Positions 907 through 9,531 of a DNA stretch of 38,563 nt are shown here, piece by piece. The first letter of the stretch is position 1, and each line of letters opens with the position of its first letter. Made by a program: the position numbers and the translations under genes. The stretch spans positions 1-38,563 of the forward strand of contig JAEKKK010000116.1 in the NCBI GenBank assembly GCA_019510405.1, given 5' to 3'. The stretch comes from Gemmatimonadota bacterium. Its GTDB lineage: Bacteria > Gemmatimonadota > Gemmatimonadetes > Gemmatimonadales > Gemmatimonadaceae. Below the pieces are notes generated by a model. That model was not told the DNA's origin, did no database searches, and saw only the letters and a program-made list of their open reading frames with translations.

Positions 907-1884
907 TCAGAGCACCCCGTGCGCCACGGGGTCCGGCGCGTCGTCCGCCGAGAAGAGCACCGTCGACAGATACCGCGCGCCGGTGTCCGGGGCGATCATC
1001 GCAACCCGCTTCCCAGGGCCCAGTGCCGTCGCCACCTGGAGCGCGGCAAAGGCGATCGCGCCGCTCGACATGCCGACGAACAGCCCCTCTTCCCGGGCTA
1101 GTCGACGCGCCACGGGGAAGGCATCCTCCTCCCACACCGGGATGACCCGGTCGAGGACGGACCGATCGAGGTTGTCCGGAATGAAGCCGGGGCCCATCCC
1201 CTGGAACTGGTGCTGCCCGCGCGTTCCACCCGATAGGACCGGCGAGCGCGCCGGCTCGACGGCGATCACGAGAATGTCCGATCGCTGCTCCTTCAGGAAC
1301 CGGCCGACGCCGGTGATCGTGCCGCCCGTACCGGAGCCGTACACGAACGCATCGATGCGCCCGTCCATCTGGGCCCACAGCTCGGGGCCGGTGGTCTCGT
1401 AGTGGATTCGCGGGTTGGCGGGGTTCGAGAACTGGTTCGGCAGCCAGGCGCCGGTCTCGTCGCGGATCCGCTCCGCGGCTTCGATCGCCGCCAGCATGCG
1501 ACGCTCGGGATCGGTGAGGACCAGCTCCGCGCCGTATGCCTCGAGCGTGCGCTTTCGTTCGTCGCTCGCCGAATCGGGAAGGCAGAGGATGAGCCGGTAG
1601 CCGCGCGCCGAGGCCACCTGCGCCAGCCCGATCCCGGTGTTGCCCGAGGTCGGCTCGACGATCGTGTCGCCCGGCTTCAGGACGCCGCGAGCTTCGGCGT
1701 CGAGAATCATTCCCAGCGCCGTCCGGTCCTTGATCGAGCCGCCGGGGTTCGCTCCCTCGAGCTTGATCCAGATCTCCGCCATCTCGGCGGTGGCGACTCG
1801 CTCGAGCCGCACGACCGGCGTGCGGCCGATCACCGCATCGACACGGTGGCCGCTGGGCACGATGGGCTGCGCGAAGGTCGTCAT
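907..1884 (-). CDS. cysK: Cysteine synthase A (O-acetylserine sulfhydrylase)
   Basis: PLP enzyme that condenses O-acetylserine with sulfide to form cysteine, the last step of the pathway in this operon. The 325-aa product has the PLP-lysine motif GGSIKDRTA (Lys52), the phosphate/substrate loop EPTSGNTGIGLAQ, GSGTGGTITGVGRFLKE in the C-terminal half and MSSGAIAFAAL near the end. Length and motif order fit CysK better than cystathionine beta-synthase because there are no C-terminal CBS domains. The ATG at 1884-1882 overlaps the stop of the sulfite reductase gene (ATGA), so translation is probably coupled. The same frame stays open far upstream through the reductase gene, but that part is antisense or out-of-frame noise. 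Confidence 0.95.
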   Translation of the reverse strand: MTTFAQPIVPSGHRVDAVIGRTPVVRLERVATAEMAEIWIKLEGANPGGSIKDRTALGMILDAEARGVLKPGDTIVEPTSGNTGIGLAQVASARGYRLILCLPDSASDERKRTLEAYGAELVLTDPERRMLAAIEAAERIRDETGAWLPNQFSNPANPRIHYETTGPELWAQMDGRIDAFVYGSGTGGTITGVGRFLKEQRSDILVIAVEPARSPVLSGGTRGQHQFQGMGPGFIPDNLDRSVLDRVIPVWEEDAFPVARRLAREEGLFVGMSSGAIAFAALQVATALGPGKRVAMIAPDTGARYLSTVLFSADDAPDPVAHGVL

Positions 1885-3541
1885 GCGACCGGACTCGCGG
1901 ATGCCCGCGCCCCCGACAGAATCGCCTTCACCCCCGCGTCGCCGACCCGGCCGGTCCAGGCGCGCACGCTCTCGCCCGCGAGCTTCTCGTTCGAGTAGGT
2001 CGAGAACAGTCGCTCCAGCGCCTCGGGCACCTCGTCCGCCGGCGTGCGGAATCCGACGCGATGTCCGAGCGTGCTGTTCTTTCCGAGCCCGCCGCCGACG
2101 AAGAAGTCGAACCCTTCCACCTGAACGCCACTCTGATTGAGCAGCACCCCCTGAAGACCGACATCGGCGATCGGATGCTGGCCGCACGAGTTCGGGCAGC
2201 CGGCGATGTGCAGCTTCACGGTGTCGGTGAAGCCGGGGAGGCGGTCCTCCAGCTCCTGCGCGAGGCGGATGCTGAACAGCTTCGTCTCCGTGATCGCGAG
2301 CTTGCAGTACTCGCTCCCGGTGCACGACGCAGTTCCGCGCTGGAAGGGCGATCCGTTCAGCGCGACGCCGAGCGCGCGGCTCCGCTCGACCAGCTCGGTG
2401 GTGCGTTCGTTCTTGATGTTCGTGATCAGGATGTTCTGCATCGCGCTCAGTCGGAGCGAGCCGTCGCCGAATTCGTCGGCGAGGGCGGCGAGCCCGCGGA
2501 GCTGGTCGGGCGAGATGCGCCCCGACACCACCGAGAAGCCGGCGTAGCTGAGACCCGCCTGCTTCTGCGGATGCACGCCGATGTGATCGCGGTAGTGCCC
2601 CTCGGGCGCGTTGTCCTCCGCCTGTGGGTCGAGCTTGTAGCCAAGGCGCCGCCCGACTTCGGCTAGAAAGGACGCCGCCGACCAGCCATGATTGATGAAG
2701 AGGAACTTGAATCGGGCCTTCGAGCGGTTCACACGGAGCTCGTCGGAGTCGCGGAAGATGGCCGTGATCGTCTCGACGACGTCGGGCACCTGCTCGGCGT
2801 GCACGAACGCCGGGAGCAGCACCGCCAGGTGCGGCTTGGTCGAGAGTCCGCCGCCCACACGGATGTGGAAGCCGACGACGCCATCGGCGCGCCGCACGGC
2901 CGTGACGCCGATGTCGTTGATCTCCGGATACGAGCACCAGTGCTGACAGCCGGTGATCGTGATCTTGAACTTGCGCGGGAGGTTGCCGTAGTCCGGGTTG
3001 CCGTTCAGCCGCGTATCGACGGCGACGGCGATCGGACTCGCGTCGATCAGCTCGTCGTGCTCGACGCCGGCGAGCGAGCAGCCGGTCACCGTGCGCGGGT
3101 TGTCGCCGCAGGCGCCCATGCTCGTCCAGCCGACTTCCGCGAGCGACTCCCAGATCGCCGGGATGTCCTCGATGCGCAGCCAGTGCAGCTGGAAGTTCTG
3201 CCGGTTCGTGATGTCGATGCTGCCGCGTGCGTACTCGTCCGAGATGTCGGAGATGCGCCGCACCCGTTCGGCGTGCGCACGCGCATCATGAAGAAGGGCA
3301 TCTCGTCGCCGCGGGTGCCGCGGCCGTCGCCCTGCGTGTACAGGCCCCACGCGCGGAAGCGCACGGTGAGGTCGTCGCTGTCGATCGCCGAGAACCCTTC
3401 GCGCGAGTAGCGACGGATGTCGTCCATGATCGACCACGGCGCCTTCTCGCGCTTGATGCGCTCGACGCGCTGGGCCGGCGTCTCCTTGACCGGCGTCAGC
3501 TCGGTGGACGTGTCGGCGGGGGTCGTGATGGGTCCGGTCAT
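1881..3541 (-). pseudogene. Siroheme sulfite/nitrite reductase, interrupted by a frameshift
   Basis: Hemoprotein of the sulfite/nitrite reductase family, expected to reduce sulfite to sulfide with six electrons. The N-terminal frame starts at the ATG at 3541 (MTGPITTP) and reads through SIMDDIRRYSREGFSAID, then FRAWGLYTQGD and MPFFMMRVRTPNG. After codons near 3266 the matching sequence (VRRISDISDEYARGSIDITNRQNFQLHW) continues in another frame to 1881. Relative to the usual spacing after PNG, about six residues are also missing, which would fit a deletion of about 19 nt or a lost base plus divergence. Downstream, the [4Fe-4S]/siroheme cysteines are intact: CTGSEYC and, about 40 residues later, CPNSC. 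Read literally, the N-terminal frame stops after 151 residues. A sequencing or assembly error is possible because all the neighbouring pathway genes are intact. Confidence 0.85.
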
Positions 3542-3546
3542 GTCAC

Positions 3547-4311
3547 TCAGGCTCGAGAAAGAAGGGTGAGGCCACTCAGCAAGACGAGGGTCGTCGCGCC
3601 CCAGCGCACGGCGCCGGGCTTCGACCGGCGCGCGAGCCAGCCGCCGGCGAGCACGCCGGGCGCGGATCCGATCAACAGCTGGCCGACGAGTGCGACGTCG
3701 ACGTTTCCAAGGCTCAGGTGCGCGGCGGCGCCCGTGCCGGTGATGAGCACGGCGTGCGCGATGCCGGTGCCGATGAGCAATCCGCCCGACAGCGGCGAGA
3801 ACAGCACGAGCGCCATGTCGACGAGGCTCCCGCTGCCCACCGACGTCGCGCCGACGGTGATGCCGATGACGAATCCGATCAGCACGATGGTCTTCGCACT
3901 CGGTTGGCGCAGGCGCTCGACCCACGCGGCATCGCGCCGGCGCGCGAACTCCATGATCAGCGCGAGGATCGGCGTCAGCACCAGCACGAAGCCGATCCAG
4001 GTCTTGATCGTCGCCGGCGCCCCGGCGAAGTGCGCGAGGATGCGCGTGCCGAGCAGCACACCGGGCACGCTCCCGATGGCCATCGTCCACACCCAGCGCG
4101 AGGAGATCGTCCGATGGCGGATGTGCGAGCCCACGCCGACGATCTTCGTCAACAGCCCGAAGAGCAGGTCACTGCCGACGACGGTCGCGGGCGGGATGCC
4201 GAGCAGCAGGAGCACGGGCGCCATCAGCGCGCCGCTGCCCACTCCGGTGAGGCCGATCATGAAACCCACGACCAGCCCCGCCAGGACGAGGTTCGCGAAC
4301 ATGGGGCTCAC
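3547..4311 (-). CDS. TauE/SafE family membrane permease (probable sulfite/sulfur anion exporter)
   Basis: Integral membrane protein of the TauE/SafE (DUF81) family with about eight hydrophobic segments in 254 aa. It has the duplicated glycine-rich signature of the family: GLTGVGSGALMAPVLLLLGI near the N-terminus and ITVGATSVGSGSLVDMALVLF in the second half. The GTG start at 4311 was chosen because it forms a GTGA overlap with the cysH stop and has a GGAGG ribosome site 7 nt upstream; the ATG at 4302 is the alternative. It lies between the APS reductase and sulfite reductase genes. A role in exporting excess sulfite, or in moving sulfate or another sulfur anion, is therefore plausible but inferred from context and family. 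Confidence 0.85.
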   Translation of the reverse strand: MSPMFANLVLAGLVVGFMIGLTGVGSGALMAPVLLLLGIPPATVVGSDLLFGLLTKIVGVGSHIRHRTISSRWVWTMAIGSVPGVLLGTRILAHFAGAPATIKTWIGFVLVLTPILALIMEFARRRDAAWVERLRQPSAKTIVLIGFVIGITVGATSVGSGSLVDMALVLFSPLSGGLLIGTGIAHAVLITGTGAAAHLSLGNVDVALVGQLLIGSAPGVLAGGWLARRSKPGAVRWGATTLVLLSGLTLLSRA

Positions 4312-5045
4312 GGCAATCCCTCCGGTGTCGACGAGATGGTGAAAGTGTGCAGCCCGCACTCGGTCTTGCCCGAGCCCGACCAGCGGCCGGCGCGTTCGTC
4401 TTCGCCGGCGCGGGTCGCGCGCGTGCATGGCCAGCAACCAAGGCTCGAATAGCCCTGGTCGAGCAGCGGGTTGTAGGGGATGCCCTTGTCGAGCAGGTAG
4501 CCCCAGATCTGTCCGCGGGTCCAGTACGCGAGGGGGTACACCTTGGCGAGCGGCCGCCCATTCACGAGATGGTGCTCGATGACCTCCGTCTTCGCGCGCG
4601 TCGGTCCCTGATCGCGGCGGACGCCACTGACCCAGGCGTCGAAGTCTCCGAGCGCACGCTGCATCGGCTCGACCTTGCGAATCGCGCAGCACCCGTCCGT
4701 ATCCGTCTCGTACAACGGCCCGGGGTCGGTGAGCGGCTTGTACTCGACGAGGTTGAGCGCATAGCGCTTCACGAGCTCGTCGCGAAGCGCGTACGTCTCG
4801 GGGAAGAGGAATCCGGTGTCGAGGAACACGATCGGCGTCGACGGCTCGATCTGCGCCGCCATGTAGGCCAGCGCGACGCCGGGCCCGCCGAAGCTGACCG
4901 TGACGGCGGTGCGGCGCGGGAAACGCTCGAGCGTCCACGCGAGGATCTCCTCGGGCGTGCGGTCGCGCAGCTGTGCCGCGGCCTCCTGCAGGCGGGTCGG
5001 CGAGAGCAGCTCGCTCGTGGTCGCGTCGCGCGTCGGGGTCGTCAT
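4308..5045 (-). CDS. cysH: Adenylyl-sulfate reductase (thioredoxin), APS-type CysH
   Basis: Reduces activated sulfate to sulfite with thioredoxin as electron donor. The 245-aa protein has the adenylyl-binding fold start TVSFGGPGVALAYMA, the FLDTGFLFPETY segment, [34 protein letters not shown] and the C-terminal KTECGLH, whose Cys is the catalytic one. The CC...CxxC pair ligates the [4Fe-4S] cluster of the APS-type enzymes; PAPS-only reductases lack it. The start at the ATG at 5045 overlaps the cysC stop as ATGA. Presence of both an APS-type reductase and an APS kinase means PAPS may be made for uses other than assimilation, or that the enzyme accepts both substrates. Confidence 0.92.
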   Translation of the reverse strand: MTTPTRDATTSELLSPTRLQEAAAQLRDRTPEEILAWTLERFPRRTAVTVSFGGPGVALAYMAAQIEPSTPIVFLDTGFLFPETYALRDELVKRYALNLVEYKPLTDPGPLYETDTDGCCAIRKVEPMQRALGDFDAWVSGVRRDQGPTRAKTEVIEHHLVNGRPLAKVYPLAYWTRGQIWGYLLDKGIPYNPLLDQGYSSLGCWPCTRATRAGEDERAGRWSGSGKTECGLHTFTISSTPEGLP

Positions 5046-5644
5046 CGTGCGGACGCCCCCTGCGCGGCCGGGAGGAAGCCCCGCTGCCGCAGCGTGTCGA
5101 GCACCTTCTCGACGCTCTCCTCGAGGGTCTCGCGCTCGGTGTTGACCTCGACCTCCGGATGCGTCGGCGGCTCGTACGGATCCGAGACGCCGGTGAAGGA
5201 CGTGATCGCGCCGGCGATGGCCTTGTTGTAGAGGCCCTTCACGTCGCGGCGGATGCACTCCTCGAGCGAGGCGTTGACGTACACCTCGATGAAGCCGTCG
5301 CCGATCTCGCGGCGCGCTTCCTCGCGTGTGGCGCGATACGGCGAGATGGCCGCCGTGATGACGGCGACGCCGTTCCGGCAGAGGAGCTTCGCCACATAGG
5401 CGATGCGGCGCACGTTGATGTCGCGGTCCTCGCGCGAGAAGCCGAGCCCCTTCGAGAGGTGCTCGCGCACCTCGTCGCCGTCGAGCACCTCGACCGCGGC
5501 GCCTTCGCTCCGCAACCGCGCCGCGACCGCGCCGGCGATCGTCGACTTCCCGGCGCCCGACAGCCCGGTGAGCCAGAGCGCGAAGCCCTTGCGCGCGCCG
5601 TCGGGGCGGTCAGTCACCGTCGTGTGGGATGTGGAATGCGACAT
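5042..5644 (-). CDS. cysC: Adenylyl-sulfate kinase, stand-alone and canonical
   Basis: Phosphorylates APS to PAPS with ATP. The 200-aa product has the Walker A motif GLSGAGKST, LDGDEVREHLSKGLGFSREDRDINVRRIAYVAKLL, the SPYRATREEAR segment, the KGLYNKA lid and the DPYEPPTHPEVEVNT substrate motif, all in the usual order and complete. The ATG at 5644 gives a normal length; upstream in-frame codons read like noise. A 52-nt gap separates it from cysD, the only non-overlapping junction between cysN and cysH. The CysN protein encoded upstream carries a second, degenerate kinase-like domain, so this gene probably supplies the real kinase activity. Confidence 0.95.
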   Translation of the reverse strand: MSHSTSHTTVTDRPDGARKGFALWLTGLSGAGKSTIAGAVAARLRSEGAAVEVLDGDEVREHLSKGLGFSREDRDINVRRIAYVAKLLCRNGVAVITAAISPYRATREEARREIGDGFIEVYVNASLEECIRRDVKGLYNKAIAGAITSFTGVSDPYEPPTHPEVEVNTERETLEESVEKVLDTLRQRGFLPAAQGASAR

Positions 5645-5696
5645 GATGGTTCGATGAGCGAGTGCGAAACGTGAGCGGCTGGCGATTGGGCGCCGA

Positions 5697-6623
5697 TCAC
5701 ATGTAACCGTCGCGGCGAAGCGACTCGAGTCCGCCGCCATCGTCCTTGTCCTGCGCGCGGCCCGAGCGCTCGGCGATGTTCGCGAAGCGGCCGCTCTTCA
5801 GCTCGACGATGATCTCCTGGACGTTCTTCGCGTCCGACGTCACCGCCTTCGTGCACGGCCAGCATCCGAGCGAGCGATAGCGCTCCCCCTTGCCCTGGTC
5901 GTAGTACAGGGCGACGGTGGGAATGCGCTCGCGCTCGATGTACTCCCAGATGTCGAGCTCCGTCCAATCCAGCAGCGGATGGATGCGCACGTGCGTGCCC
6001 GGCGCGAACTCGGTTGCGTACTGATTCCAGAACTCCGGCGGCTGATCGGCGATGTTCCAGTTGTTCTCCCCCGACCGTGGGGAGAAGTAACGCTCCTTCG
6101 ACCGGCTTCCTTCTTCGTCGGCGCGTGCGCCGACGATCACGCCGGTGTACGGCTCCCTGTTCGTGTCGACGACGTACTTGCCGAGCTTGTGGTCGAAGCG
6201 ATAGCGCTTTCCCTCGCCCGAGAGCGTGCGGCGCAGCGCTTCCGTCTTGAGGTTGCCGCAGCAGGTGAGGCGATCGACGTTCCCATCGGGGAAGGTCTGC
6301 TTGGCCGCGAGTGCTTCCTCGTTCTGCCCGTAGATCACCGTCAAGCGCCACTCTGCCGCGAGACGGTCGCGGTACTGGATCATCTCCGGGATCTTGTAGC
6401 TCGTGTCGATGTGCACGAGCGGCATCGGCACGTGACCGAAGAACGCTTTCCGCGCCAGCCAGAGCAGCACGGTGCTGTCCTTCCCGATCGACCAGAGCAT
6501 CGCGAGCTGCGGGAAGCTCGCGTAGGCCTCGCGCAGGAGATGGACGCTGCGATGCTCGAGCGCGTCGAGGTGATCGATGCGGCTGGCGCGCGACGGGGGC
6601 GCGGCGAGCGTGGTGGTACTCAT
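5697..6623 (-). CDS. cysD: Sulfate adenylyltransferase subunit 2
   Basis: PP-loop ATP pyrophosphatase subunit of ATP sulfurylase, which makes APS from sulfate and ATP together with the CysN GTPase. The 308-aa protein shows [13 protein letters not shown], the PP-loop [78 protein letters not shown] and SLGCWPCT near the end. The start at the ATG at 6623 gives an ATGA overlap with the cysN stop and has GGAG 10 nt upstream; an ATG five codons earlier (6638) is less likely. The order cysN-cysD is reversed compared with the usual cysDN. Confidence 0.95.
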
Positions 6624-8503
6624 GATTGGCTGCTCCATTCATCGAGCCAGGCGAGGACCTGGGCGCCGCTCTCCTCGAGCGTGAGACGTCCGGTGTCGAG
6701 CGCGAGCTCGGGCTGTACGGGGGCTTCGTAGGGCGGCGACTCGGCCGCGCCGATCCGCTGCGCCAGCACATCCGGCGACGCATGGAGGTGGATCTCGACG
6801 AAGTTGGCCGCCTGGTCGCGCGCGGCGCGCCGTACGTCGTCGTCCGGCGAGTCGACCGCAACGACCACGGCCGCGCCATGTGCCTCGAGGCGCGAGGCGA
6901 GCCACGCGATGCGCCGCACACGCAGTGCGACGTCCCCGCGCGCGCCGGACGCGGGGAAGAGCTCCCCGAGCGTGTCGTCGTCCAGCAGCTCCACCTTCGC
7001 TCCACTGGCGTCGGCGTGCGCCGCGATCCAGCGCGCCAGCGCGCTCTTGCCGGCGCCCTTCGGACCGGTGAGCCAGAGCACACCGGCACGGAGCGCCACG
7101 CGTGTAGCGCTTCCCGCCGCACGCGTGGGCGCAGTGGCGAGGGCTTCGCGCACCACGCCGCCGCCACTGATGTTGAAGTTGTCCACGAGCACGAACCGGC
7201 TCGTCGCCGCGATGTCGGTCGCGCGATCGAACGCGATCGGCTGACGGAGCTTCAGCACGCACTCGGCGACCTCGTTGCGCAGGACGGCCGTGCGATCGGT
7301 GACCGCATCGAGCGTCGACGCATCGAGCACGCGCTCGATGTGCTCGAGATGCACCGACACGCGCGCCGTGCCGAGCTTCAGAGTGTAGTTGCGCCCGACC
7401 TCGAGCGGCCTGGTGCCGAGCCAGAAGATGCTGGTGCGGATGCGCGTCGCGGTCACCGGCTGCGGCTCGTGGGCGAGCGTCGCGAGCTCACCGCGCTGCA
7501 CGTAGATCTGCTGCGCGAGCGTGAAGCCGGCCGACTCTCCCGCGCCGACGACGGACGGCGCGACGCGGTTGAACGCCTCGAGTGACTTGACCCGCGTGCG
7601 CTTGCCCGACGGATGGAACACCACCTCGTCGCCGACGCGCAGCCGGCCGCTGTCGATCGTGCCCGCGACGATGCGCCGATCGTCGCCGTCGTTCGTGAAC
7701 TTGAAGACGGCCTGCACCGGCATGCGGAAGGGCCCGTCGACGGCCTCCCCCTGGCTGCGGAAGGCGTCCAGCACCTCGAGCACGGTCGGTCCCGTGTACC
7801 AGGACATCGTCGCCGACCGCGTGGCGAGGTTGTCCCCTTCGCGGCCGATCACCGGGATGATCGCGGCGGGCTCGAGTCCGATGGAGCCGAGGAATCCCCC
7901 GAGATCGCGCGCAAAGGCGTCGAAATCCTCCTGCCGGCTGCCGACGAGATCCATCTTGTTGACGACGACGGCGATCTGCCGCACGCCGAGCATCGACAGC
8001 AGATACGCGTGTCGCCGCGTGTTCTCCTGAATCCCCTCACCGGCGTCGAGGACGAGCAACGCCGCCTCGGCGCGCGCTGCCCCAGTGACCATGTTCTTGA
8101 GGAACTCGACGTGGCCGGGCGCGTCGAGGATGAGGTACCGGCGTTTCGGCGTGCGGAAGAAGACGCGCGCCGCGTCGATCGTGATGCCCTGGGCGCGCTC
8201 GTCCTTCAGTGCGTCGAGGAGGAACGCGTACTCGAACGGCTTCGCCGTTCGCGCGCACAGATCCTTGATCTGCTCGAGCTTCCCCTCCGGCAACGAGCCG
8301 GTGTCGGCGAGCAGCCGTCCAATGATCGTGCTCTTGCCGTGATCGACGTGGCCGACGATCACGATCCCCATGCGGGCTTCGACCTCGGCGGCGTTCCCGC
8401 CCGCGGTTCCGCTCGAGGCGATGTCTTCGGGGAAGGGAAGCCCTTCCTCGTCGAGTCGGAGCGGGCGTACCGCGATGCCCGCCGAGCCGGTCAGGGCGCT
8501 CAT
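6620..8503 (-). CDS. cysN: Sulfate adenylyltransferase subunit 1 fused to a degenerate APS-kinase-like domain
   Basis: GTPase subunit of ATP sulfurylase. The GTPase part covers roughly residues 1-455 of 627: G1 GHVDHGKST, the [15 protein letters not shown] switch I region, G3 DAPGH, G4 NKMD, then two beta-barrel domains of the EF-Tu type. From about residue 465 to the end is an APS-kinase-like domain that keeps a P-loop (GPKGAGKSA) and a C-terminal [16 protein letters not shown] substrate-like motif. In it LDGD has become LDDD, and the LGFSxxDR and KGLY lid motifs are missing. Since a complete cysC lies two genes downstream, this domain is more likely structural or regulatory than catalytic. 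The ATG at 8503 overlaps the stop of the osmC-like gene (ATGA). Confidence 0.93.
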
Positions 8504-9009
8504 GACGCCTCTCCGCGCTGCGCCACCACTTCGCCGGCGACGCCATTCAACACCAGGCGCGACTCGATCACGAGATCGTGCGCGAGCGACGCCGACACCG
8601 AGCAATACGTCTGGAACGACAGCGCGATCGCCCGCTCGGCGTGCGCCGACTCGATCCCCGAGCCGTCGATCGCGAACTCGAGCCGCGCGCGCACCAGGCG
8701 CCGCGGTGCCGAGCCGCGCCGTTCAGCGTCCACACGCACGTCGACGCGATCGGCTGGTGTACGGCGTTTGGCGAGATAATCGACCACGTCGATCGCCGAG
8801 CAGGCAGCCAGCGCCCCCAGCATGGTGTCCACCGGGCCGAGCCCGGTCTCCCCGGCGGCGTCGATGGAAACGGCGGGCCCACCGGGCCGCCCGATCTCGT
8901 AACGCCGCGCGCCGCGCCATGACGCATGCACCGTGGTCGTCGTGGGGCGCGCCTCGCCCTCGCCCTGCGAAGAGGCGGGGGGCGCTCGATCCGGCTCGAC
9001 GACGGTCAT
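8500..9009 (-). CDS. OsmC/Ohr family protein
   Basis: OsmC/Ohr proteins are small dimeric, thiol-dependent peroxidases or related stress proteins. The 169-aa product has the family core [28 protein letters not shown] (first Cys), later a second Cys in the context [14 protein letters not shown], as in the usual two-Cys arrangement. About 28 N-terminal residues before [13 protein letters not shown] look poorly conserved, so the true start could be slightly later. It is the first cistron of the sulfur operon after the attenuator, and its stop overlaps the cysN start. The exact substrate cannot be read from the sequence; handling of organic hydroperoxides or sulfur-containing small molecules is inferred from the family and the operon. 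Confidence 0.85.
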
Positions 9010-9096: not shown

Positions 9097-9124
9097 AAAA
9101 CCGGCCGCTCATTCGAGCGGCCGG
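9097..9124 (-). terminator. Attenuator terminator in the cys operon leader
   Basis: A 10-bp perfect stem (CCGGCCGCTC 9124-9115 / GAGCGGCCGG 9110-9101, read on the minus strand) has the tetraloop GAAT and is followed by TTTT (9100-9097). It lies after the cysteine-rich leader ORF and before the first structural gene, so by position it controls read-through into the operon. Its 5' arm overlaps by 8 nt the 3' strand of a 12-bp antiterminator. Confidence 0.8.
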
Positions 9125-9183
9125 GTTGTGCTTCCCCGTGTCGGTGGAGTGCGCGCTTGTTCAGCTGCTCTCAACCCGGCCGC
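9117..9183 (-). promoter_or_regulatory. Antiterminator pairing of the cys attenuator
   Basis: GCGGCCGGGTTG (9183-9172), which lies inside the last codons of the leader ORF, is perfectly complementary over 12 bp to CAACCCGGCCGC (9128-9117). The second strand shares positions 9124-9117 with the terminator 5' arm, so the two structures exclude each other. A competing upstream pairing is TCTGGCC (9209-9203, directly after the Cys codons) with GGCCGGG (9181-9175), 7 bp including two G-U pairs. This gives the 1:2, 2:3 and 3:4 logic of classical amino-acid attenuators. Confidence 0.75.
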
Positions 9184-9238
9184 GATCTGTGTGCTGGCGC
9201 TTGGCCAGACAACAGCAAATCGAAATCGACGGACACAT
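9161..9238 (-). CDS. Cysteine-rich leader peptide of the sulfate assimilation operon
   Basis: The ATG at 9238-9236 opens 25 codons ending in TGA at 9163-9161. The peptide begins MCPSISICCC, with Cys codons at positions 2 and 8-10 (UGC UGU UGU at 9217-9209). It ends RGRVESS, and the last codons form strand 2 of the antiterminator. A ribosome stalled on the Cys codons would cover strand 1 and free strand 2; one that reaches the stop would cover strand 2 and allow the terminator. The frame remains open upstream to 9409, but this ATG is the only plausible local start; a weak GGTGGGG lies upstream. A regulatory leader is proposed from position, Cys run and RNA pairing; the sequence cannot show translation. 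Confidence 0.75.
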   Translation of the reverse strand: MCPSISICCCLAKRQHTDRGRVESS

Positions 9239-9376
9239 ACACGCGCAGGCCCCACCAGCCGCGCGGTGAGCGCAGGCGATGTGACGAGCGGGAATGGCCA
9301 AAGCGAGGGAGCGGATCACGGGTGAAGCGATAGGGTCGAAGCGGTGGCGATGGCTAGAACAGAACTGCGTGTATAC
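9239..9376 (-). promoter_or_regulatory. Region that must hold the cys operon promoter
   Basis: About 140 nt lie between the terminator of the zinc-ribbon gene and the leader peptide ATG. No hexamer pair with good spacing to the sigma-70 consensus stands out here, and no other gene was seen. The promoter is placed here only because the leader ORF and attenuator must be downstream of it. Confidence 0.3.
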
Positions 9377-9407
9377 AAAAAAGCGCCCGAGCGAGTGGCC
9401 GCCGGGC
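9377..9407 (-). terminator. Probable Rho-independent terminator of the zinc-ribbon gene
   Basis: On the minus strand GCCCG (9407-9403) and CGGGC (9389-9385) form a short stem with a 13-nt loop that can fold further. It is followed by GC and six T (9382-9377). It lies 125 nt beyond the stop of the gene ending at 9532. The stem is modest but the U-tract is good. Confidence 0.55.
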
Positions 9408-9531
9408 ACGTTCGCGTTTTAGCTCGTTGTTTAACGTGGCGGCAATAGGCGGCAAATCACCACGGACTACGATTGGTTCCCGCAACCTAGGCCAGCCGCC
9501 CGATGGAGTCAAGCGCGCGGGCGGGACATCG

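Follow-up and report, generated by a model that had tools for sequence, protein, structure and literature searches.

The window analysed here, a stretch of 38,563 nucleotides from a soil bacterium of the Gemmatimonadota (family Gemmatimonadaceae; contig JAEKKK010000116.1), carries on its minus strand eight genes for sulfate assimilation, which profile searches place in the order osmC-cysN-cysD-cysC-cysH-tauE-sir-cysK. The first gene of the operon encodes an OsmC-family protein (8500-9009; PF02566, E 1.5e-14). It is followed by a cysN-like gene for the large subunit of sulfate adenylyltransferase (ORF bounds 6620-8605, the true start lying further in; PF01583, and TIGR02034 slightly under its cut-off), cysD (5697-6638; NF003587, over cut-off), the APS kinase gene cysC (5042-5740; TIGR00455, over cut-off), the APS/PAPS reductase gene cysH (ORF bounds 4308-5258; NF002537, over cut-off), a member of the TauE/SafE sulfite exporter family with the domain in the C-terminal part of its ORF (3547-4938; PF01925, E 4e-36), a NirA-like nitrite/sulfite reductase (1881-3437; PF01077 and PF03460) and the cysteine synthase gene cysK, which occupies the C-terminal part of its ORF (907-2937; TIGR01139, over cut-off). 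These family searches bear out the eight-gene, cysteine-making operon that the original prediction had placed 3' of a leader. The CysN protein of the window (8605-6620) has a C-terminal APS-kinase domain with a weak score, and a separate, well-scoring cysC is present in the same operon.

On the same strand, 5' of this sulfur operon, we identified a predicted SAM-II riboswitch. The aptamer (Rfam RF00521, SAM_alpha; 9402-9473) scored 41.9 bits in cmscan (E 5e-8), over the gathering score of 36, and runs into an intrinsic terminator (9377-9409) of the form GTGCCCG..CGGGCGC then TTTTTT. A GGCGGC in this terminator (9403-9398) is complementary to the aptamer sequence GCCGCC (9453-9448 and 9443-9438, minus strand), and the two motifs tend to co-occur across relatives, which suggests, from the sequence, an expression platform of the terminator type. 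A candidate promoter for the leader is formed by the -35-like hexamer TTGACT (9507-9512) and the -10-like hexamer TAGGTT (9484-9489), from which transcription would start near 9477. Both hexamers and their 17-nt spacing are kept, within a diverged spacer, in G005, a genome of the same genus (CysD 95% identical), though a stricter consensus scan missed them. SAM-II is found at the equivalent position in G005 and, more widely, in 92 of the 99 relatives searched; many of the sites outside the window's family stand directly before genes such as metH and have no second attenuator. The original prediction had missed the riboswitch and its T-run terminator, as well as the upstream in-frame Cys codons described below.

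A Cys-rich short ORF lies downstream of the riboswitch. The original prediction described it as 25 codons long (9161-9238; ATG 9238-9236, TGA 9163-9161; MCPSISICCCLAKRQHTDRGRVESS up to the stop) with three consecutive Cys codons, TGC TGT TGT, at 9217-9209. The sequence and these coordinates are correct on the minus strand, but the extent is probably an N-terminally truncated view. The three-codon run is present in the window and G005 only; it is absent from G004 and G006, where it falls in a 26-nt gap of the alignment, and by this alignment it is a lineage-specific feature. Further Cys codons lie in frame 5' of the ATG, at 9274-9272, 9247-9245 and 9241-9239. The block TGC GCG TGT ATG TGT (9233-9247), which encodes Cys-Ala-Cys-Met-Cys and has two of its Cys codons before ATG 9238, is kept in all four osmC-type leaders aligned (window, G005, G004 and G006), with TGYGCNTGTATGTG invariant and ACAC-MC conserved. 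Of the three frames, that of the Cys codons is best conserved between the window and G005, both over the full length (149 versus 85 and 116 for the other frames) and 5' of the ATG alone (58 versus 21 and 39), and the region 5' of the ATG is similar to that of the G006 leader (similarity 59; shuffled mean 34, SD 6). Because the block is conserved in four species with two Cys codons before the ATG, and because the Cys frame 5' of the ATG is conserved in G005 and similar in G006, the start of leader translation is probably 5' of ATG 9238, with GTG 9319 as the simplest candidate. The candidate full ORF (9161-9319), with this GTG as its putative start codon, would have 52 codons, seven of them for Cys (MIRSLALAIPARHIACAHRAAGGACACMCPSISICCCLAKRQHTDRGRVESS up to the stop). 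No clear Shine-Dalgarno sequence precedes either ATG 9238 or GTG 9319, and codon-position substitutions between the window and G005 showed no informative pattern in the 25-codon part. In the window's best frame, seven Cys codons fall within 30 codons (shuffle p = 0.009).

With seven Cys codons in 52 before a cysteine operon, the ORF has the character of the leader peptide of an amino-acid-type attenuator, and the intrinsic terminator before the first gene and the antiterminator that excludes it are also present. Arm 2 (GCGGCCGGGTTG, 9172-9183) and arm 3 (CAACCCGGCCGC, 9117-9128) form a perfect 12-bp antiterminator (9183-9172 with 9128-9117). The intrinsic terminator (9097-9124), 88 nt upstream of osmC, is a 10-bp hairpin (9124-9101, -21.9 kcal/mol) with the arms CCGGCCGCTC (9124-9115) and GAGCGGCCGG (9110-9101) around a GAAT loop, followed by the U-tract TTTT (9100-9097), which is short in the window and longer in most relatives. 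The two helices have 8 nt in common and are mutually exclusive, and on the helices, their positions and their overlap the original prediction was confirmed from the sequence. Arms 2, 3 and 4 have the palindromic core CGGCCG in common, so that any two of them could in principle pair. With no ribosome on it, the attenuator region is predicted to fold into the antiterminator (2:3 helix), and the Cys codons then lie in a hairpin of their own beside arm 2. To gauge chance, a switch was defined as an 8-bp or longer hairpin followed by TTT and overlapped by an alternative helix of 9 bp or more. Shuffling 9240-9097 5000 times with dinucleotides preserved produced no such switch, and the same definition applied to both strands of the 38.5-kb window picked out one place only, the 9240-9097 leader.

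Related genomes had been named by the original prediction as the place to look for Cys ORFs followed by terminators, and the comparison was in its favour. In G005 the leader is complete and in the same order: promoter hexamers, SAM-II, T-run, leader peptide (MCPAIIACCCVAKRPYTRRGRERSS), arms and terminator. We also searched with a codon-blind pattern made of the RNA arms only, in which most arm letters were fixed. Applied to the 179 family genomes with no demand for a T-run, this pattern matched at 13 sites and its reversed controls at 8; with the T-run included it gave nine sites in 395 Gemmatimonadota genomes and no control hits. All nine sites are in the window's family, and each of them precedes sulfur genes (osmC-cysN, osmC-sulfite reductase, sulfite reductase or a rhodanese-type sulfurtransferase); G006, with eight T, belongs to the family search and lies outside the phylum sample. 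At most sites, the frame that enters arm 2 and ends 9-27 nt beyond its first base has many Cys codons, or many Met and Cys codons. Examples are the peptides ..LCGAARCRACCCVCGCACRFERCACCC.. and ..CRACCCVCGCACRFERCACCC.. in G022, ..ECCTPVCCCMTMC.. in G110, ..CAHQYCACACACMCACM.. and ..CAHQYCACACACMCACMQ.. in G004, ..CGSMCRMEACACMC.. in G006, ..FACRAMCC.. in G049 and MHVRGTCCR.. in G191. Cys is enriched across the seven loci outside the discovery set (combined Fisher p = 7e-4); against dinucleotide shuffles, p for most single loci ranged from 0.001 to 0.06, and the enrichment was not significant at three of the seven (G122, G049 and G191). This test is conservative, since the shuffles preserve TG and GC dinucleotides.

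At all 12 loci compared, the antiterminator has 8-12 bp, the terminator has 8-13 bp and the two overlap by 6-9 nt, and the T-run of the terminator is kept in most relatives. Identity of the arm letters is not evidence here, because the search fixed most of them. Among the letters left free, G-C at one antiterminator pair (seven loci) is replaced by A-U in G049 and G022, and at one terminator pair C-G (nine loci) gives way to U-A in G005. Covariation of the alternative helices, which had been put forward as a check, can thus be seen in two pairs, but with a palindromic core in the arms and most letters fixed by the pattern it is weak and limited to these two, with probably one event each. SAM-II is absent within about 1.5 kb of the Cys attenuators in G004, G006, G122, G110, G049 and G022; the modules are therefore separable, and the Cys gate does not depend on the tandem. 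Two of these attenuators (L173, G004:C10; L176, G006:C539) lie 3' of an apparent branched-chain aminotransferase gene, and at L198, a related osmC locus preceded by this gene too, there is no leader. Other routes to related loci added little: a search with the window OsmC alone found none, a four-sequence OsmC alignment found, besides three Gemmatimonadetes loci that appear to come from species already compared, further OsmC-like loci in Gemmatimonadetes that have no leader, scans for Cys runs around other cysD loci gave no further convincing leaders, and BLAST of the leader DNA against the 179 family genomes gave good coverage in G005 only, together with a weak match in G110 that is a real Cys attenuator. 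The parts of the leader are present and conserved, its helices exclude one another, and it is tied to sulfur genes.

The leader resembles attenuators of the trp/his type in its regulatory codons, its alternative antiterminator and terminator helices and an amino acid that matches the operon, and the original prediction had assigned it to that architecture. Under this reading, translation would start at ATG 9238 and, with the ribosome absent or past, strand 1 (9209-9203) would pair with strand 2 (9181-9175) to give a 1:2 / 3:4 off state. The weak 7-bp pairing on which it depends, with two G-U pairs, does exist in the window, and the geometry is like that of trp attenuators. The pairing is not conserved, however: in G005 it is disrupted (TGTGGCG against GGCCGGG), and in G004 and G006 the alignment lacks the segment that holds strand 1. 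In addition, the predicted fold contains the 2:3 helix, with the Cys codons in their own hairpin adjacent to arm 2, and the conserved Cys block begins before ATG 9238. The leader thus differs from the trp/his four-strand subtype in lacking a conserved 1:2 protector and in having arm 2 just before the stop codon, and we regard this assignment, which did not hold for the protector, as unlikely. It is more likely that arm 2 is freed or masked by the position of the ribosome rather than by a classical 1:2 helix.

We favor, with good confidence, a proposal in which the leader is a transcription attenuator with two checkpoints, a SAM-II gate and then a Cys-codon attenuator. RNA polymerase would start near 9477, provided that the candidate promoter is used, and would meet the riboswitch first. 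With SAM bound, the terminator would form and transcription would end near 9377; when SAM is absent, the GCCGCC of the aptamer would pair with the GGCGGC of the terminator and the polymerase would pass. It would next transcribe the Cys-rich ORF, which we take to be translated. With charged tRNA-Cys in ample supply, the ribosome would reach the stop codon (9163-9161) and cover part of arm 2 (9183-9172), so that arm 3 would pair with arm 4 and transcription would terminate at about 9097. Counted from the start of arm 2, the stop lies about 20 nt further on in the window and 9-27 nt further on across the loci, and a ribosome at the stop would therefore cover much of arm 2. With charged tRNA-Cys scarce, the ribosome would stall on the Cys codons (9247-9209) and leave arm 2 free to pair with arm 3, no terminator would form and the osmC-cysK operon would be transcribed. 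Because the fold with no ribosome is the antiterminator, an untranslated leader is expected to favor readthrough, unlike that of trp. Given a SAM-II riboswitch with its own terminator directly upstream of the Cys leader, the Cys attenuator of the window is probably the second of two gates and the leader a two-input device, whose output would require low SAM together with low charged tRNA-Cys. From the arrangement of these parts we infer promoter use, translation of the ORF, the ribosome positions, and termination with its response to Cys and SAM.

Leaders in which SAM-II is followed by a second attenuator also occur before methionine genes. SAM-II leaders before homoserine dehydrogenase (L083 in G003, L084 in G004, L086 in G006) and metX-like genes (L098 in G022, L141 in G049), genes named here from their translations and not from a family search, contain between SAM-II and a second terminator a Met-rich short ORF, exemplified by MRTIMSMTMRMMRMMRMTMRMTMRMTMRMTT.. 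in G022, and are candidate Met attenuators in tandem. Met enrichment in these leaders is strong (combined Fisher p = 9e-10). The window genome has a second SAM-II site (L082, G000:C317, 7318-6930, minus strand), where a T-run, a mixed Met/Cys leader (..CMRMPIGMRMCIGRPEGCRPGMALRPGCEERR up to the stop) and the same arms stand before a rhodanese-type sulfurtransferase gene; its counterpart in G005 (L085, G005:C62) has the same arrangement before the sulfurtransferase. In G024, SAM-II before cysH (L064, 2882-3210) is followed by a TG-rich block that reads CACACECGCEC or, in another frame, MRMRVRMRVRMR, with a stop near the arms in the Met frame only. We think it somewhat probable that the window's family uses modular leaders, in which a SAM-II terminator is combined with a ribosome-reading attenuator whose peptide is rich in Cys at cysteine genes and in Met at methionine genes; a swap of codons would re-tune the leader to another aminoacyl-tRNA, and the gates would compute 'low SAM and low charged tRNA'.

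Other ways of reading the Cys leader of the window fare less well. It might act on translation, mRNA decay or Rho termination, where stalling at Cys would expose or mask a Rho site or the osmC start, in the way proposed for the Cys uORFs of mycobacteria, which are without intrinsic terminators (PMC1262725) and have been called translational attenuators (PMC13236596); given a hairpin and T-run 88 nt 5' of osmC that is kept in 12 loci, mostly with the T-run and each time with an overlapping alternative helix, we think this quite improbable. It is very unlikely that another amino acid is sensed, the TG-rich block (TGCGCATGTATGTG) reading Cys or, one frame over, Met or Leu. Such a stretch does give Met repeats in another frame in some relatives, as in G024, and at hom and metX the peptide after SAM-II is rich in Met. 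Met is not enriched in the window (p = 0.97), however; no frame is better conserved than the Cys frame and the operon makes cysteine, while a Leu-rich alternative frame (MYVSVDFDLLLSGQAPAHRSRPG up to the stop) ends differently in the window and G005 and was set aside in favor of the better conserved Cys frame. A chance meeting of a GC-rich palindromic hairpin with a TG-rich stretch, in an operon controlled by the SAM-II riboswitch alone, has in its favor that CGGCCG palindromes are common in GC-rich genomes and that the reversed pattern gave 8 hits when no T-run was demanded, but is hardly credible beside 0 of 5000 shuffles and, with the T-run, no control hits and nine of nine sites before sulfur genes. 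We conclude that the leader very likely contains a real cysteine attenuator that acts as the second gate of a SAM-II/Cys tandem.

Several known systems share features with this leader. The uORFC-8-2 motif upstream of cysS in Rhodobacterales is a predicted ribosome-mediated Cys attenuator (PMC8632094) and, like the leader of the window, combines a short uORF containing tandem Cys codons with an intrinsic terminator downstream of it; this kind of attenuator is therefore known beyond mycobacteria. It differs in preceding the gene for cysteinyl-tRNA synthetase in alphaproteobacteria, in having two Cys codons and in that no tandem riboswitch is described, and the leader of the window, on a sulfate operon in Gemmatimonadota, falls outside that group. 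In mycobacteria, Cys-rich leader peptides likewise precede cysteine biosynthesis genes: polycysteine uORFs of cys operons are leaderless and cysteine-responsive (Canestrari et al. 2020, cited in PMC13236596 and PMC9094748; PMC1262725; PMC4633059) and are described as translational attenuation with neither a conserved intrinsic terminator nor a SAM riboswitch (PMC1262725, PMC4633059, PMC13236596). The leader of the window does not belong with them, having a terminator and, 5' of the ORF, SAM-II and a promoter-like sequence. SAM-II riboswitches of Alphaproteobacteria, such as those of S. meliloti metA and metZ, belong to the same aptamer family, and that of metZ is likewise predicted to act via transcription termination, but these control methionine genes and no second codon-reading attenuator is described for them (PMC9373788, PMC1273637). 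The tandem of SAM-I and a Met T-box reaches the same logic by another route (PMC9481103): a single 5' UTR holds a SAM gate and, after it, an amino-acid/tRNA gate, which together give NOT-SAM AND amino-acid-shortage logic; there the tRNA is sensed by the T-box RNA instead of by a translating ribosome, and the riboswitch is SAM-I instead of SAM-II. A pair of SAM-II and leader peptide was not found in the consulted part of that tandem-riboswitch literature. Neither the combination of a SAM-II riboswitch with a codon-reading attenuator nor any attenuator in Gemmatimonadota was found described in the one literature collection searched, where absence is not proof. It appears that the SAM-II/attenuator tandem is undescribed and that Cys attenuators themselves are known elsewhere.

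If the proposal is true, the leader would add a codon-reading attenuator to a phylum for which none was found in the literature searched, and it would be a case of Cys attenuation, through a clear intrinsic terminator, that acts on sulfate assimilation itself. It would also place a riboswitch and a ribosome-mediated attenuator in series, so that one operon is gated by two products of the same pathway. Since related species have both Met- and Cys-type versions, it would become directly testable how the specificity of such attenuators evolves.
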